A DNA stretch of 64,000 nt from an uncultured Rhodospirillales bacterium (GTDB lineage: Bacteria > Pseudomonadota > Alphaproteobacteria > Azospirillales > Azospirillaceae), in assembly GCA_903927615.1 (NCBI GenBank), contig CAIYNU010000063.1, forward strand, positions 1-64,000. The letters are read 5' to 3'. Shown here piece by piece: positions 45,387-51,823 of this stretch (position 1 is the stretch's first letter; each line of letters begins with the position of its first letter). Position numbers and translations under genes: made by a program. Under the pieces are notes generated by a model. It was given only the letters and a program-made list of their open reading frames with translations, was not told where the DNA came from and ran no database searches.

Positions 45387-45701
45387 TCATTTGACGTCGA
45401 TCCTCAAGGGCATCTTGGGATGGATTTCGCACTGGACGTCGATGGTTCCCCGTTCATGGAGCGTGACCCCGCCCTGTTGTCCCGGCTTTCGAGTGCCGAG
45501 ATCGAAGGTGGCCTGGGGTGATTCGGAGCAGACATTGTGGGTCGCCTCGTCCTCGTTGGAGAACCGCACACGCTCTCCCACATGGCCGGTGAGGGTGGTC
45601 GGCAGACAGCCGCGATCCTTCTGGACCACGACCAGATCCTCGGCGACCACCGGAACCGCCACCCGGCCGATCCGGAGCCCGACGCCCGATCCCAGGCTCA
45701 T
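45387..45701 (-). CDS. small cupredoxin (plastocyanin-like, methylamine-utilization type)
   Basis: The 104-residue protein carries a type-1 copper site: H55 in EATHNVCSE, then C91, H94 and M97 in QCEIHPKMPL. It has the beta-sandwich pattern VGERVRFSNEDEATHN, then GGVTLHERGTIDVQC. A typical signal peptide is not evident, although the N-terminus is moderately hydrophobic. Its ATG overlaps the stop of the cytochrome c peroxidase-like gene (ATGA), so the two are made together. A role as periplasmic electron carrier to or from that protein is the simplest idea. Confidence 0.8.
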   Translation of the reverse strand: MSLGSGVGLRIGRVAVPVVAEDLVVVQKDRGCLPTTLTGHVGERVRFSNEDEATHNVCSESPQATFDLGTRKPGQQGGVTLHERGTIDVQCEIHPKMPLRIDVK

Positions 45702-46543
45702 GGTGGCACCGGAACCGTGAACTCGGCGTCCTGCCGCCCCGTGAGACTGGGCAGGAAAGCCACAAGCGCCGAGTGCTCCTCGGGCGACAGCGTCAGCGGC
45801 TTGATCTCGTCAGCCCGGCTGGGTCGCGCCTCATCGCCGCTCGCATAGAAATCCACAACCGCGGTCAGCGTCGGCAAAGAACCGTCGTGCCTGTAGGGCG
45901 GCTGGAGCGCCACGTCGCGCAGACCCGGAGTCCGGAAGGCGTTTCGCATCTTGACCGAGTTGGGGACCTGCTTGCCGCGCCCCAGGTCGCCGGTATCGGG
46001 CAGGCCGGTATCGTGAAAGCCACCGTCGCTGAACGTCCATCCGCCACGGCAGGCGGAGCATCCGGCCCGGCCGGTGAACAGGGCGAAGCCCTGTTTGGCC
46101 CCGGCCCCGATAGCGGTGTCATCACCCCCGACCCAGCAGTCGAACGGCGCGCGGCCCGAGACCAGGGATCTTTGGAAGGCCGCCGGGATCAGCGTTTCCA
46201 GGGAGGAAAAGCGGCCGTCCCCCAGGAGCCTTGGCATTTCCGTCAGATTGACCGTGGGTAAGGTCCGGCGCGCCATCAAGGTACCGCCGTCGTTGAAGGG
46301 CCGGGCCACCCGGTCGGCCCCCCCCAAAGACGGCAGGTGACAGGAGGCGCAGGCCACCGACCCGGTTTTCGATAGCCGCCGGTCGAAAAACAGCACCTTC
46401 CCCAGTGCCATCACGGGCGCGGCGGCGGTATCCACGGCCGGGAGCGGCGGACGCCGAAAGTCGTTCGGGCCGCTTTGGGCGTCCGCCGACCCCGCAAGAA
46501 CGGCGAGGGCCGGCATAACGAACAACAGCCGCCAAGCCGTCAT
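45698..46543 (-). CDS. cytochrome c peroxidase / MauG-like protein with an altered second heme motif
   Basis: The 281-residue exported protein starts at ATG 46543 (GGAAGGGAA upstream; the frame is open to 46654), with signal cleavage near SADAQ. The first c-type heme motif is canonical, C65-A-S-C68-H69. The usual second motif reads C162-S-A-C165-R166, so the axial histidine is replaced by arginine (codon CGT at 46046-46048). The rest of the region (GCSACRGGWTFSDGGFHDTG) is well conserved, as is FRTPGLRDVALQPPYRHDGS. It may be mono-heme and catalytically altered. It is coupled to a cupredoxin gene. Confidence 0.85.
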   Translation of the reverse strand: MTAWRLLFVMPALAVLAGSADAQSGPNDFRRPPLPAVDTAAAPVMALGKVLFFDRRLSKTGSVACASCHLPSLGGADRVARPFNDGGTLMARRTLPTVNLTEMPRLLGDGRFSSLETLIPAAFQRSLVSGRAPFDCWVGGDDTAIGAGAKQGFALFTGRAGCSACRGGWTFSDGGFHDTGLPDTGDLGRGKQVPNSVKMRNAFRTPGLRDVALQPPYRHDGSLPTLTAVVDFYASGDEARPSRADEIKPLTLSPEEHSALVAFLPSLTGRQDAEFTVPVPP

Positions 46544-47036
46544 CGCACCAGTTCCCTTCCAAGCGGAGATCAGGGCCCTTGATCCGCAGTAGATATGGCG
46601 CGTTACTCTCCAGCTCGCTTCCGTCAATGTACCAAGCCGCTTGCCGACTTTCAAGCCCGACCGGTGGCTTGGCCGCGCCCCCGCTCGCCTTGGCGAGGCC
46701 AGGGATTAATTTACTGATCTAGTGTTGTTGATCTGTCGCCCCGGAGCCATCTGACCAATACTCATCCGATGAATTTTCTGTTGCGATGGCGAATGTAGGC
46801 GGGGGCGAACAGCGCCTTAACCTTTTCTAAACAATGTCAGGGGCAAATAGCCATGCCCGCGCGCAGCTTCTAGGGTGTTGGCATCGTAATGTTCATTTCG
46901 CTTGGTGCGTCGGCCACAAATGAGCACTGCTCGGAAGTGGCCATGGGCGTAGGCGGTTACGCAAGAGCTATTACATAAAACATAAAATATCGTTTGGCGA
47001 CATCAAAAGACTAATCACTCACTGCGGAGATTCTAC
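46544..47036. other. intergenic region before the GNAT gene
   Basis: No gene is seen. The right half becomes AT-richer (for example ttattacataaaacataaaatatcg before 47037), marking the start of a lower-GC segment. Confidence 0.4.
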
Positions 47037-47906
47037 ATGAAAATATATCGGTTTTTAACAGAAGCGGATGCAGGCGAGTATCAAAATCATCTACTTAGAC
47101 TTGATCACGATTCAAGATGGGCACGTTTTAACTGTAATGCGTCTGACATGATTATTGGCCGTTACGTTGCGAGCATTGCTTGGGACGCTTGTGATATTAT
47201 TGGGTTTTTCAGTGACGACTATATGCGTGTGGCTGTCGAAATTCGTCGCGAGGCTTCTAGTCATGCTTTAATGGCAGAAATTGCATTTACGGTTGAGCGC
47301 GAGTACCAAAATTGCCGTGTTGGCACAAATTTAATGATTCAGTCTCTTATTACTTTGCATGAGAGGCGTATTTTACAAGCGAGTGTCGTTTGCCTGCTCT
47401 CTAACCGCAGAATGCAGAAGCTCGCCTTAAAGTATCGAAGTGATGTAGTCGCTGATAGTGGTGAGGTTTTTATTACCATTGATATCAACAGCGCAGTGAG
47501 CGATTCGCGTTTAACAGAGATGTTGAACAACGAGTGCATGAACATTCATGATATCCGCAGCTATCTTATAAATAGTGGCATGGCGCACTACAGTCTTGAG
47601 CTACATGAGCATAGCTTCAGTCATGCCGTCAAACTACCAACCGAAATCGTTTATGTAAGTACTCAGGAAAGCGAGGACGATAAGCAATCACATCTATTAA
47701 TTCCCACATTGGATCTGGGGAGCATTTATGGAGTCCGTGGCAGATACAAAAAATATGGCCGTGGCGTTGCTGCGGCGTGGCTTCGCTCCCAATACAAAGG
47801 CGTATCAAACGCTGTTGCTTCCAATATGGTCGACAAGATAGTTACAGCTCAGAATACAACGAGCTTATTTTCCAGAAATACCAATATAGGAGTTCATGAC
47901 CGCTAA
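47037..47906 (+). CDS. GNAT-family N-acetyltransferase-like protein
   Basis: The 289-residue protein has an N-terminal GNAT fold: MKIYRFLTEADAGEYQNHLL, then ALMAEIAFTVEREYQNCRVG corresponding to motif A, followed by TNLMIQSLITLHERRILQAS and LLSNRRMQKLALKY. The C-terminal half (from about 165) is not recognised. Substrate is unknown. Base composition and codon use are less GC-rich than the surrounding chromosome, which with the following oxidase segment suggests acquired DNA. The start follows a weak GGAG (cggagattctac). Confidence 0.72.
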   Translation: MKIYRFLTEADAGEYQNHLLRLDHDSRWARFNCNASDMIIGRYVASIAWDACDIIGFFSDDYMRVAVEIRREASSHALMAEIAFTVEREYQNCRVGTNLMIQSLITLHERRILQASVVCLLSNRRMQKLALKYRSDVVADSGEVFITIDINSAVSDSRLTEMLNNECMNIHDIRSYLINSGMAHYSLELHEHSFSHAVKLPTEIVYVSTQESEDDKQSHLLIPTLDLGSIYGVRGRYKKYGRGVAAAWLRSQYKGVSNAVASNMVDKIVTAQNTTSLFSRNTNIGVHDR

Positions 47907-48887: not shown

Positions 48888-49202
48888 ATGAAGCAGGTCG
48901 GGCAGGTATCAGTCATAGTGGTAATCACCATGGCTTTGTTGTTCGGCTTCGGCTGCAACTGCATGGCAAGGTCGGCGGTGCCGGTTTCTGGACACCACCA
49001 TCACCATTGCTCGGACGGCCCTAACCATGGTTGCGCGATCCTGATACATGCATCGTGTTGTGCTTCGCTGCCGTCTCCGACCGGCTTGGCAGCTATCGTC
49101 TTTGTCCACAGCCAGCGCGCGAGTTGGATGCCGCCGGTCGAAGTCATTCCTCCAGGCCAGCGCATCTCACCAGACCCTCGCCCACCGAAATGTGTCCTCT
49201 GA
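48888..49202 (+). CDS. small exported His/Cys-rich protein next to the oxidase genes
   Basis: The 104-residue product begins with a hydrophobic segment (VSVIVVITMALLFGFGCNCM) that is a signal peptide or lipoprotein signal. A metal-binding-like stretch GHHHHHCSDGPNHGCAI follows, then SCCASLPSPTGLAAIVFVHS and the end PPGQRISPDPRPPKCVL. The run of five histidines plus cysteines suggests copper or another metal ligand. It lies 42 bp before the CuA subunit gene and may help metallate it. The family is not one I can name. Confidence 0.6.
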   Translation: MKQVGQVSVIVVITMALLFGFGCNCMARSAVPVSGHHHHHCSDGPNHGCAILIHASCCASLPSPTGLAAIVFVHSQRASWMPPVEVIPPGQRISPDPRPPKCVL

Positions 49203-49244: not shown

Positions 49245-49967
49245 ATGTCTGAAAACAGGCATTTTACGACCCGCCGCAGCTTCATCACAGGGATGGGCTT
49301 TGGCGCTGTCGGTCTATACGGCGTTTGGGCAGCTTATGGAGCCGCTCCACTGCCGTTCAGCACCCATCATGAGGGTCTTCATGACGGACACGGCGAACCA
49401 GCCGAGGCTGTGGGACATGAAGGCATGGTGCATGGCGCTCGTCTCGGTATGACACCAGAGACCTTCCGCCGCGAACACGCCGCCTTCGTTGATAAGTTCA
49501 AACGACCTGACGGTAGCGTTGAGCCAGGTCCACAGGCAGCTATTGCTCACGACATGAGCAACCATCTGATGATGGGAGATGACACGGCAACTCATGACAT
49601 GTCTGATCACGGCATGGGACCTCATGAGATGTCACATATGTCTCACGACTCTGGTACCGATCAGCCAGTTGACTTGTATTTACTGGCGTTCATGTGGGGC
49701 TATAATCCAGACACCCTGCGGCTACGGACTGGTGTTCGCTATCGGTTGCGCATGATGGCCGATGATATTACGCACGGCGCTTCACTCCAACTTGGGACAG
49801 CCAGTCGGATCATCCGGCTTCGACCGGATATTGTTAGTGAGCAGATCATCACCTTCACCAAACCGGGGAACGTCCTGATCTACTGCACCGTCTATTGCGG
49901 CCCTGGTCACGACCGGATGCAAGGGAAAATTATCGTCACTGGCTCTGAACCGGGAGGCCAGTCATGA
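49245..49967 (+). CDS. CuA-domain subunit II of a ba3-like heme-copper oxidase, with a His/Met-rich insert
   Basis: The 240-residue protein has a twin-arginine-like N-terminus (TTRRSFITGMGFGAVGLYGV, R10-R11). A long His/Met-rich stretch follows (about 41-65 and 102-135, for example HDMSDHGMGPHEMSHMSHDS). The C-terminal cupredoxin has a complete CuA site: H177 (DDITHGAS) and C214-x3-C218-x3-H222-x2-M225 (YCTVYCGPGHDRMQ), close to the Thermus ba3 pattern. CuA accepts electrons from a cytochrome or cupredoxin. Its stop overlaps the start of the subunit I gene (ATGA). Confidence 0.85.
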   Translation: MSENRHFTTRRSFITGMGFGAVGLYGVWAAYGAAPLPFSTHHEGLHDGHGEPAEAVGHEGMVHGARLGMTPETFRREHAAFVDKFKRPDGSVEPGPQAAIAHDMSNHLMMGDDTATHDMSDHGMGPHEMSHMSHDSGTDQPVDLYLLAFMWGYNPDTLRLRTGVRYRLRMMADDITHGASLQLGTASRIIRLRPDIVSEQIITFTKPGNVLIYCTVYCGPGHDRMQGKIIVTGSEPGGQS

Positions 49968-51637
49968 GCGATACCATGCCCTCTCTGACAGATCGCATCG
50001 CGGCTTTGCCCGGTTGCGACAAGACACTGGCGCGTGTGTTGTTTGGTTCAGCACTTCTGGCATTGCTCCTTGGCCTCGGCTTTGGTTGGTTGACCGCGCT
50101 GGGCCGGGCTGGCGTAACAGGTTTCGAGCCGCTGCTGGCGGCCCGATTGCTGACGCTGCACGGAGTCACCGTGTTCTTCTACTGGCTTTATCTGGCCCAG
50201 GCTGCATTGCTGCTGGTGTTGGCCGGTGCGGAACAGAACTGCGGTGGACTGGCATTGCGTCCTTTGGCCTGGGTCGGTTGTGTCCTGATGCTGGCAGGCT
50301 TTGCCGTCAGCGAGATCTCCAGCATCATCGGAACACCGCTGCTCTATGACGGCGGGCCGGCGCTCGGTCGCGACGACCCGGCAGCGGTGGGCTGGTTCTC
50401 GCTTGGTTATCTGCTTCTTGGTGCCGGGTTGGCGGTGAGTTCGGTCAGCGTAATCGCCACTGTACTCTCTCGCCCAAACAGCGGCACAAGTGAACCGCTC
50501 TCCGCAGTCGGGTTCGCGCTCTTCGCATGGGCGGGCTTCTTGATTGTCAGCGCCATCGCTTCGGTCAACGCCTTTCTGCCGTCAGTCCTTTGGGCACTCG
50601 GCCTCGGCGCGTTTCCGGCGAATCAGCCAACCGAATGGCACATCCTGTTCCACAATTTGCACTACCTTCCGCTGATGGCGACGGTGGTGGTCTGGTATGT
50701 ACTGGTTCAGGCGCTGACCGGCGTCTCGTCGATGCACGGCTCTCGGTTCTCCAAAATCGTGTTTGCGTCGTACCTGCTGTTTGTGCCCCCAACCTCGCTT
50801 TACCACATGTTTCTGGAGCCCAATCTGGCAGAGGGAGTCCGGGTGGTTGGCTCATTGCTGTCACTGTTTGTCGCCGTTCCGACGGTAATGGCGTTCCTGA
50901 TCATCGTATCGTCGCTTGAAGCCCACGGCCGCTCTCACAGCAGTTCTGGTGGGTTTTCCTGGGTTAGAGCCTTGCCGTGGAAAAATCCGGTCATGTCAGC
51001 GATAGCATGTTCGGCTCTCAACCTGGCGCTCGGCATGACTTTCGCCTTCGTACTTATACAGGAAAAAGTGGCGCCGCTGCTTAGTGACACATTCTTCGTG
51101 CCAGGCTATTTTCACTTCTTCGCCGTCGGCACCGTGTCATTGAGTTTTCTTGCTGCCATGATGGTAGTTTTGCCAGCCCTGACGGGAACATTACCGTGGC
51201 GCCCCTCTTTGCTGAACCGTATGCCCGCATTGATCAGTGTTGGCCTATTGATCTTCGGAGCCGCAGGCATTGCGGCTGGTTTTGTAGGTGTGCCCAGGCG
51301 CACCTTCGACATCAGCTATGGAGGGGACGCTCCCGCACTTTGGCACACACTGATGTCAGCCGTTGGCATTGGTGGAACTGTTTTTGCCATTGGCCTTACG
51401 GTGTTGGTGATTGGGGTTGCGCGAAGCCTGTTTCAAAAGATTGGCGACGTCACAAACCAGCAACCCGAGGTGTCATGGGGGAACACGCCGGCTCGGGCTT
51501 CAGCCGCTGCTTGGGTAGGACCGCTCGGCGTGTTGGTCATGGTCTTGGCAATGGCAGTCTTCACCGTTGTTGCCTTCGAACTGATGAATGCCCTGCCGCT
51601 GATTGTAATTGGCGGAAGCGGCGGCCATAGCCATTGA
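49964..51637 (+). CDS. ba3-like heme-copper oxidase subunit I homologue with altered active-site ligands
   Basis: The 557-residue protein with about 13 membrane helices aligns well with B-family (ba3) subunit I, for example LTLHGVTVFFYW, RALPWKNP, LPALTG and GVPRRTF. The low-spin heme ligands are kept: H66 and H384. The usual HPxVY is H230-N-L-H-Y234, keeping the first CuB His and the Tyr. The CuB pair HH reads Y280-H281. The HFH motif reads Y382-F-H384, so the high-spin heme proximal His appears lost. Electron entry through CuA and low-spin heme may persist while oxygen reduction is doubtful. Confidence 0.85.
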   Translation: MSDTMPSLTDRIAALPGCDKTLARVLFGSALLALLLGLGFGWLTALGRAGVTGFEPLLAARLLTLHGVTVFFYWLYLAQAALLLVLAGAEQNCGGLALRPLAWVGCVLMLAGFAVSEISSIIGTPLLYDGGPALGRDDPAAVGWFSLGYLLLGAGLAVSSVSVIATVLSRPNSGTSEPLSAVGFALFAWAGFLIVSAIASVNAFLPSVLWALGLGAFPANQPTEWHILFHNLHYLPLMATVVVWYVLVQALTGVSSMHGSRFSKIVFASYLLFVPPTSLYHMFLEPNLAEGVRVVGSLLSLFVAVPTVMAFLIIVSSLEAHGRSHSSSGGFSWVRALPWKNPVMSAIACSALNLALGMTFAFVLIQEKVAPLLSDTFFVPGYFHFFAVGTVSLSFLAAMMVVLPALTGTLPWRPSLLNRMPALISVGLLIFGAAGIAAGFVGVPRRTFDISYGGDAPALWHTLMSAVGIGGTVFAIGLTVLVIGVARSLFQKIGDVTNQQPEVSWGNTPARASAAAWVGPLGVLVMVLAMAVFTVVAFELMNALPLIVIGGSGGHSH

Positions 51638-51652: not shown

Positions 51653-51823
51653 ATGAAAGAGGATGCGCTGTTGATCTTGCTGGTGTTTGTCGTTTGGGCG
51701 GCGCTGGCACTAATCTATGCACTGGTTCCCAGTCTCGGTATGCCCGGTTATGTTCGCGTGTGGGGGGCTGGAGCCGCCTTATTTTTAGGACTGGCTGGGC
51801 TGTTGACCGCTGTTCGTCGCTAA
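51653..51823 (+). CDS. 56-aa membrane protein, probable small oxidase subunit
   Basis: This short gene begins MKEDALLILLVFVVWAALAL, with an excellent GGAGGG before the ATG, 15 bp after the subunit I stop. It has two hydrophobic segments (LLILLVFVVWAALALIYALV and VWGAGAALFLGLAGLLTAV) joined by VPSLGMPGYVR, and a basic end VRR. Size, position and topology fit the small accessory (subunit IIa-like) polypeptide of ba3-type oxidases, although I cannot confirm homology. Confidence 0.65.
   Translation: MKEDALLILLVFVVWAALALIYALVPSLGMPGYVRVWGAGAALFLGLAGLLTAVRR

Follow-up and report, generated by a model that had tools for sequence, protein, structure and literature searches.

A homologue of the heme-copper oxidases (HCOs) that appears to have lost ligands of its active site raises the question of what such a protein can still do. 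The window analysed here, 64,000 nucleotides from an uncultured Rhodospirillales bacterium, carries an operon in the order CuA subunit, subunit I, small one-helix subunit. A preliminary description of the locus had proposed that subunit I lacks the proximal ligand of the high-spin heme and one CuB ligand. The features used below are as follows (positions in the window, all on the plus strand).

48888..49202 (+): small secreted protein rich in His and Cys, resembling cluster c13 of Azospirillum (neighbour comparison)
49245..49967 (+): subunit II, 240 aa, with N-terminal TTRRxF anchor, His/Met-rich linker and CuA domain (invariant CuA ligands, AF2 model)
49964..51637 (+): subunit I, 557 aa, remodelled B-type heme-copper-oxidase fold (ORF, profile, alignment, model)
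50159..50161 (+): His66, low-spin heme ligand, equivalent to ba3 H72 (80 of 81 rows, one gap)
50651..50665 (+): H230-N-L-H233-Y234, a kept CuB His, a new invariant His (H233, at ba3 V236) and a kept Tyr (81/81)
50801..50809 (+): Y280-H281-M282, Tyr for CuB ligand H282, H283 kept, new Met (Y280 and H281 81/81, M282 80/81)
51107..51115 (+): Y382-F-H384, Tyr for the proximal high-spin heme ligand H384, low-spin ligand H386 kept (81/81)
51653..51823 (+): small one-helix subunit, 56 aa (homologue directly downstream of subunit I in 79/81 loci, window included)

The gene for the His/Cys-rich protein, which gave no Pfam match, may stand first in the operon.

Subunit I, its pocket and its partners

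Subunit I belongs to the HCO superfamily by its COX1 fold and by its match to the PF00115 profile (E = 1.5e-34, residues 23–472, 120 bits against a cut-off of 34.8). Among PDB sequences it matches T. thermophilus ba3 entries best (E = 3.6e-19), and the proposal that it can be aligned with ba3 along its full length holds on both the PDB sequence alignment and the profile. The AlphaFold2 model (built from 73 aligned members of the family described below; pLDDT 85.6, pTM 0.90; cofactor-free) matches ba3 1ehk with Z 33.2 and an rmsd of 2.5 over 469 residues, and oxidase 7deg ties with 1ehk (Z 34.1, rmsd 2.5, 474 residues). The key motifs align without gaps (FHNLHY in subunit I with GHPxxYF in ba3, YHMFLEP with HHQFADP and PGYFHF with PGHFHL), and this rules out a shift in register by which the histidines would be regained. 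The equivalent positions, subunit I first, are H66/H72, H230/H233, Y234/Y237, Y280/H282, H281/H283, Y382/H384 and H384/H386. The preliminary description had thus read the locus correctly in that HPxVY has become HNLHY with H230 and Y234 kept, in placing Tyr280-His281 at 50801–50806 and Tyr382-Phe-His384 at 51107–51115, and in concluding that the proximal ligand of the high-spin heme and one CuB ligand are missing, Tyr382 and Tyr280 standing in their places. It was also right that both low-spin heme ligands are intact; the one in TM2, to which it had given no number, is H66 and the other is H384.

A search of the genome collection found 106 relatives, the best 80 of which were kept (48–83% identity to the window protein across most of its length) and, with the window but after removal of one locus that was the window again (L003), make 81 rows. 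In this set of the best 80 of 106 relatives and the window, H230, N231, H233, Y234, Y280, H281, Y382 and H384 are invariant (81/81), so that four of the six histidines of the HCO set are kept and the equivalents of H384 and H282 are Tyr in every row; the homologues conserving both Y280 and Y382 for which the preliminary description had proposed to search thus exist. The 81/81 count was partly favoured by the search, as two of the six search peptides contain Y280 or Y382. For this reason members were also collected without peptide patterns, three by whole-protein search and eight by HMM (own copy not counted), and all 11 have the same ligands, nine being already among the 81 loci and two being new. 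Fixation of the Tyr substitutions in 81/81 members is more than chance would give.

The pocket was compared between 73 aligned members (alignment A1, with eight of the 81 rows left out) and 33 outgroup sequences. Changes shared by all 73 members include Y382, Y280, H233 (ba3 V236) and N231 (ba3 P234), and F229 at ba3 G232 and M282 at ba3 Q284 were each found in 72/73; L364 at ba3 N366 is a further shared change. Both partners of a heme-a3 propionate in ba3, D372 and H376, are altered in every aligned member (A370 and S374, 73/73). The family does not have the ba3-type K-channel residues: ba3 Y244 is V241 in 71/73 members (V is also found in 26/33 outgroup rows), S261 is G259 and T312 is A, V or L310 in 73/73, and only Y248 is kept (72/73). 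The aligned members keep the Arg pair R445/R446 and the low-spin heme ligands, and the changes that they share cluster at the former binuclear centre, which now consists of three His (H230, H233, H281), three Tyr (Y234, Y280, Y382) and M282. Judged from this arrangement of residues, the invariant new H233 may replace the one lost CuB-side histidine, and because H230, H233 and H281 remain on the CuB side copper is still possible there; the high-spin heme would be either absent or ligated by Tyr382. In short, the family resembles ba3 oxidase of T. thermophilus in its fold, CuA subunit, low-spin heme ligands, equivalents of H233, H283 and Y237 and the Arg pair (R449/R450 in ba3), and differs from it in the Tyr residues at H384 and H282, in the new H233, N231 and M282, and in the changed K-path residues and D372/H376.

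The CuA subunit had been described as intact, and the ligands H177, C214, C218, H222 and M225 are indeed invariant in 68/68 subunits II in one count and in 56/56 aligned subunits II in another (these counts cover 68 or 56 of the 81 loci, crude gene calling having missed or lost the others). The AF2 model of subunit II (pLDDT 77.2) is closest to 2cua, the CuA domain of ba3 (Z 14.9, rmsd 2.5, 118 residues); like the ba3-type oxygen reductases, the family has a CuA subunit II. Many members have a His- and Met-rich linker ahead of the CuA domain, and in some it is poor in these residues (His+Met fraction 0.05 to 0.32, median 0.12, in 66/68 subunits II, two being left out). The gene for the small subunit lies downstream in the family, whereas 7/8 plasmid operons of B-/Q-type relatives that were viewed have a small ORF immediately before the subunit II gene.

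A separate clade of B-type oxidase relatives

A score gap from 183 to 794 bits separates the family from its lower-scoring relatives. Of the latter 31 were examined (33 matches minus two without a locus), and 31/31 keep all six histidines, with HSSQQ, in which the Tyr has become Gln, in 26 and a normal HxxxY in five; none of these 31 is an intermediate that has His at just one of the substituted sites. In a quick maximum-likelihood tree 43 members fall on one side of a branch with SH-aLRT 100, on a stem 1.82 changes per column long, separate from the Q-type and Y-type B sequences (12 rows each); the tree program warned that long branches, that of the family included, may mislead the deeper joins. 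The family is thus shown to be a distinct clade related to the B-type heme-copper oxidases. Its members come from Azospirillum, Rhodobacterales, Burkholderiales, Gammaproteobacteria and other taxa, Azospirillum brasilense ATCC 49958 (L015) among them, and its distribution is taxonomically broad and patchy: in a phylum sample of 398 genomes the window's own genome was the only one with a member, and in a sample of near relatives 4/39 genomes had one, own included (identity at least 55%). In the phylum-sample and HMM searches at most the first three or five candidates per genome were scored, and some members may have been missed. A side observation concerns a Q-type relative on a plasmid of Thermus thermophilus TF24 (L142:3785-5470), which lies near nirS and has Lys for the low-spin heme His (GHFK).

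B-family oxidases without the catalytic tyrosine have been termed degenerate in an earlier study, whose authors doubted that they reduce O2 (PMC6431628). Judged by motif these are probably the HSSQQ-type relatives found here, which share the B-type fold with the family. The two form separate branches and have lost opposite parts of the site, since all six His but no Tyr are present in the HSSQQ types, whereas the family has the Tyr but not two of the His. The candidate NO dismutases are also HCO-superfamily proteins with an altered set of metal ligands and a proposed new function; as that report describes them, they are qNOR-like, with one coordinating His replaced by Asn and the others kept (PMC3413370), a ligand set that the family does not have, as it combines two His to Tyr changes with a B-type fold and a CuA subunit. 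The same report calls the six-histidine set a signature of the HCOs (PMC3413370), and one standard HCO classifier is described as discarding sequences without the six histidines (PMC3084760), which may explain why the family stayed unseen. Searches of an open-access library gave no description of this ligand set or family. A strictly conserved clade without two signature His, the proximal heme ligand included, means that the HCO fold can be re-tooled.

Copper-resistance neighbours and FNR-type boxes

Recurrent neighbours of the operon, assigned by Pfam except for the HMA marker, which was assigned by eye, are a P-type ATPase with YHS/HMBD, an RND pump, CusF, a multicopper oxidase, DUF411, DUF305 and DUF2933. 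At least one strict metal marker was found at 44/81 loci and at least two at 26/81. In ten of the 44 the marking comes solely from P-type ATPase or RND pump genes of unproven metal specificity, and without these pump-only loci the count is 34/81; DUF411, CusF or a multicopper oxidase is found at only 16/81. Markers were present at 0/20 loci of related oxidases and at 0/19 nosZ loci from member genomes, compared with 15/20 member loci in the 20 genomes of this nosZ control (Fisher p = 3.7e-6; L177 was excluded because it is on the same contig as the member locus L078), a contrast biased somewhat towards the copper claim, as the markers were picked from member neighbourhoods. The loci are also related to each other, and neighbourhood is association, not chemistry. 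Where a DUF411 gene was called (eight loci), it is always located upstream in the same orientation, in seven cases within 1.4 kb of subunit I; we take DUF411 to be CopG from its CxCC motif. The family is thus genetically linked to copper-resistance genes, but the window's own locus is one of the 37/81 at which no strict marker was found. A Pfam scan of 143 (of 153) neighbours of such unmarked loci gave nothing more frequent than ABC transporters (six), response regulators (four) and hemerythrin (three) among the 25 of 202 families listed. Upstream of the operon CueR-type sites were no more frequent than in shuffled sequence (2/67 and 3/67 loci compared with 2.2 and 2.0). A CusR-like pattern was found at 18/67 loci, window included, compared with 7.0, and a loosely chosen TTACAN4TGTAA pattern at 6/67 compared with 0.6.

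FNR/Dnr-type boxes (TTGATN4ATCAA, at most one mismatch) were sought 0.5–2.0 kb before subunit I, with the expectation taken from the rest of the loci. They are present upstream in 31/79 loci (two of the 81 were too short), in total 32 boxes against 4.0 expected, about eightfold enriched, with exact boxes at 15 against 0.73. Within 600 bp of subunit II they occur at 16/67 loci compared with 0.2 in mononucleotide shuffles (67 of the 81 loci entered the shuffle test). The loci concerned are from Azospirillum, Rhodobacterales-type and Burkholderiales-type genomes and unclassified MAGs; as members are related, the Poisson P of 1e-18 overstates certainty. With at most one mismatch, no box was found upstream in the window or in its 83% relative L005.

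A possible copper redox complex and its rivals

The reading that we favour, with a probability of roughly 0.4, is that the family forms a periplasm-facing redox complex for copper under low oxygen and is no oxygen or NO reductase, a function that we infer from sequence and genome context. Metal-resistance neighbours and FNR-type boxes together point to copper redox chemistry under O2 scarcity, most likely the oxidation of Cu(I), whose electrons would travel through CuA and heme b. Cu(I), bound to the His/Met-rich tail of subunit II or delivered by partners such as CopG (DUF411), would be oxidised, the electron entering CuA and then heme b, from where it might move on to the rebuilt site or return to cytochrome c and the anaerobic chain (in which direction electrons flow, and to which final acceptor, is a guess); the high-spin heme would be either absent or Tyr-ligated. 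Such a complex would be the O2-independent counterpart of what the multicopper oxidases CueO and PcoA do with O2. Counting against this reading are the unmarked loci, the window's among them, the loci marked by pumps only, the denitrification genes that some loci have beside them instead, the missing FNR-type box in the window and L005, a genome of the window with neither nosZ nor nirK, and the linkers with little His and Met. CueO-type oxidases use O2, and neither CueO/PcoA nor CopG is known to have a fold related to the family or to be an integral membrane complex; the likeness lies in the proposed periplasmic Cu(I) oxidation, and genes of these kinds neighbour some of the loci. According to a review, CopG-like proteins contribute to anaerobic copper resistance and have a proposed role in Cu(I) oxidation (PMC7558416). 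In its most complete form, in which the HCO fold has been rebuilt as an O2-independent membrane cuprous oxidase, with Cu(I) electrons passing via CuA and heme b, either no high-spin heme or one ligated by Tyr, CuB replaced by a new three-His site, and FNR/Dnr-type switching in many of its copper-stressed facultative anaerobe hosts, the proposal is doubtful and offered as a tentative scheme. The operon could make it testable how cells handle toxic Cu(I) without oxygen. The preliminary description had offered an electron device of CuA and heme b or a new class of reductase, and the loss of two ligands, the conservation across the family and the intact low-spin heme and CuA ligands make such a device, or a new class of enzyme, reasonable; what may now be added is H233 for the lost CuB-side His, the wider rebuilding of the pocket and the copper and low-oxygen genome context.

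The main rival of copper redox work is a passive electron or copper carrier, that is, a CuA/heme-b protein without catalysis that would serve as an electron wire, as a buffer or carrier of copper, or as a helper in the assembly of other copper enzymes, and in which the old site has been filled and there is no high-spin heme. The missing proximal His, the missing D372 and H376 (the propionate partners), Phe in place of Gly at ba3 G232 and the changed K-path residues all fit such a protein, which we regard as possible and somewhat unlikely; against it, the invariance of H230, H233, H281, Y234, Y280 and Y382 in 81/81 rows suggests a selected site and not a filled hole. The same losses at the proximal ligand and at D372/H376 in 73/73 members, with the K-path changes in nearly all, argue against O2 reduction, so that a functional O2 reductase, with Tyr382 as ligand of the high-spin heme and H233 in place of the lost CuB ligand, is improbable in spite of the kept cross-link tyrosine Y234 and the three His on the CuB side. 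Nor did we see SCO, CtaG or heme synthase (by eye) among the recurrent neighbour clusters, and the FNR-type boxes also speak against this reading. That the gene is simply a decayed, pseudogene-like oxidase we consider scarcely credible: ligands have been lost, and a COX1-like protein without metal ligands is reported from Acetobacter (PMC10715153), but the 73 aligned members, at 48–84% identity to the window protein, share 76 invariant columns and the three-gene order is conserved, and conservation across the family refutes a pseudogene reading of subunit I.

An unlikely reading, with more in its favour than the last two, is that of a new N-oxide enzyme with a Tyr-ligated heme, acting in NO reduction or dismutation or as a helper of nitrous oxide reductase, comparable to the NO-active HCO variants. 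Besides the FNR/Dnr-type boxes, nosZ scored above the cut-off in 24/40 member genomes tested (40 chosen of 80 found), in 4/4 non-centre members of one sampled family (63/247 genomes overall, p = 0.004) and in 2/2 members of another (50/249 overall, p = 0.04), and the operon adjoins denitrification genes in three loci, namely L078 (nosR-nosZ, NsrR-like), L056 (nirK) and L084 (narG, narK); L078, a Pseudotabrizicola MAG, has the operon directly before nosR-nosZ. However, nosZ was found in only 1/4 members of the sample around the window's own genome, which has neither nosZ nor nirK. VHLWVEG, a NorB motif, is present in at least 16/41 member genomes (exact pattern, a lower bound), so that a normal NOR is probable there and the role of a missing NOR unlikely in those genomes. 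The linkage to metal-resistance genes would also be left unexplained, and the protein itself lacks the NOR motifs: these are given in PMC3084760 as H-X-Arom-X-E and HHX-Arom-Arom-X17-E, and subunit I reads H230-N-L-H-Y and Y280-H-M-F.

Some other features of the window and its genome were observed in passing. An acetyltransferase-like ORF just before the operon (47037–47906) has a G+C content of 0.433 and a GC3 of 0.417, most of the window being at 0.56–0.69, and is perhaps a recent transfer; at 45387–46654, on the strand opposite to the operon, lie genes for a MauG-like di-heme protein and a small cupredoxin-like protein. Elsewhere in the genome, visual inspection of a 483-aa protein with the COX1 fold (G000:C100:61431-62636, minus strand, L002) revealed no His motif of the usual kinds. 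A further oxidase-like subunit I (G000:C6:204123-205280, minus strand, L004), in a 659-aa frame with a terminal CuA domain, has HVLQF and SHYH motifs and lies near a CtaA-like frame, both again by eye.
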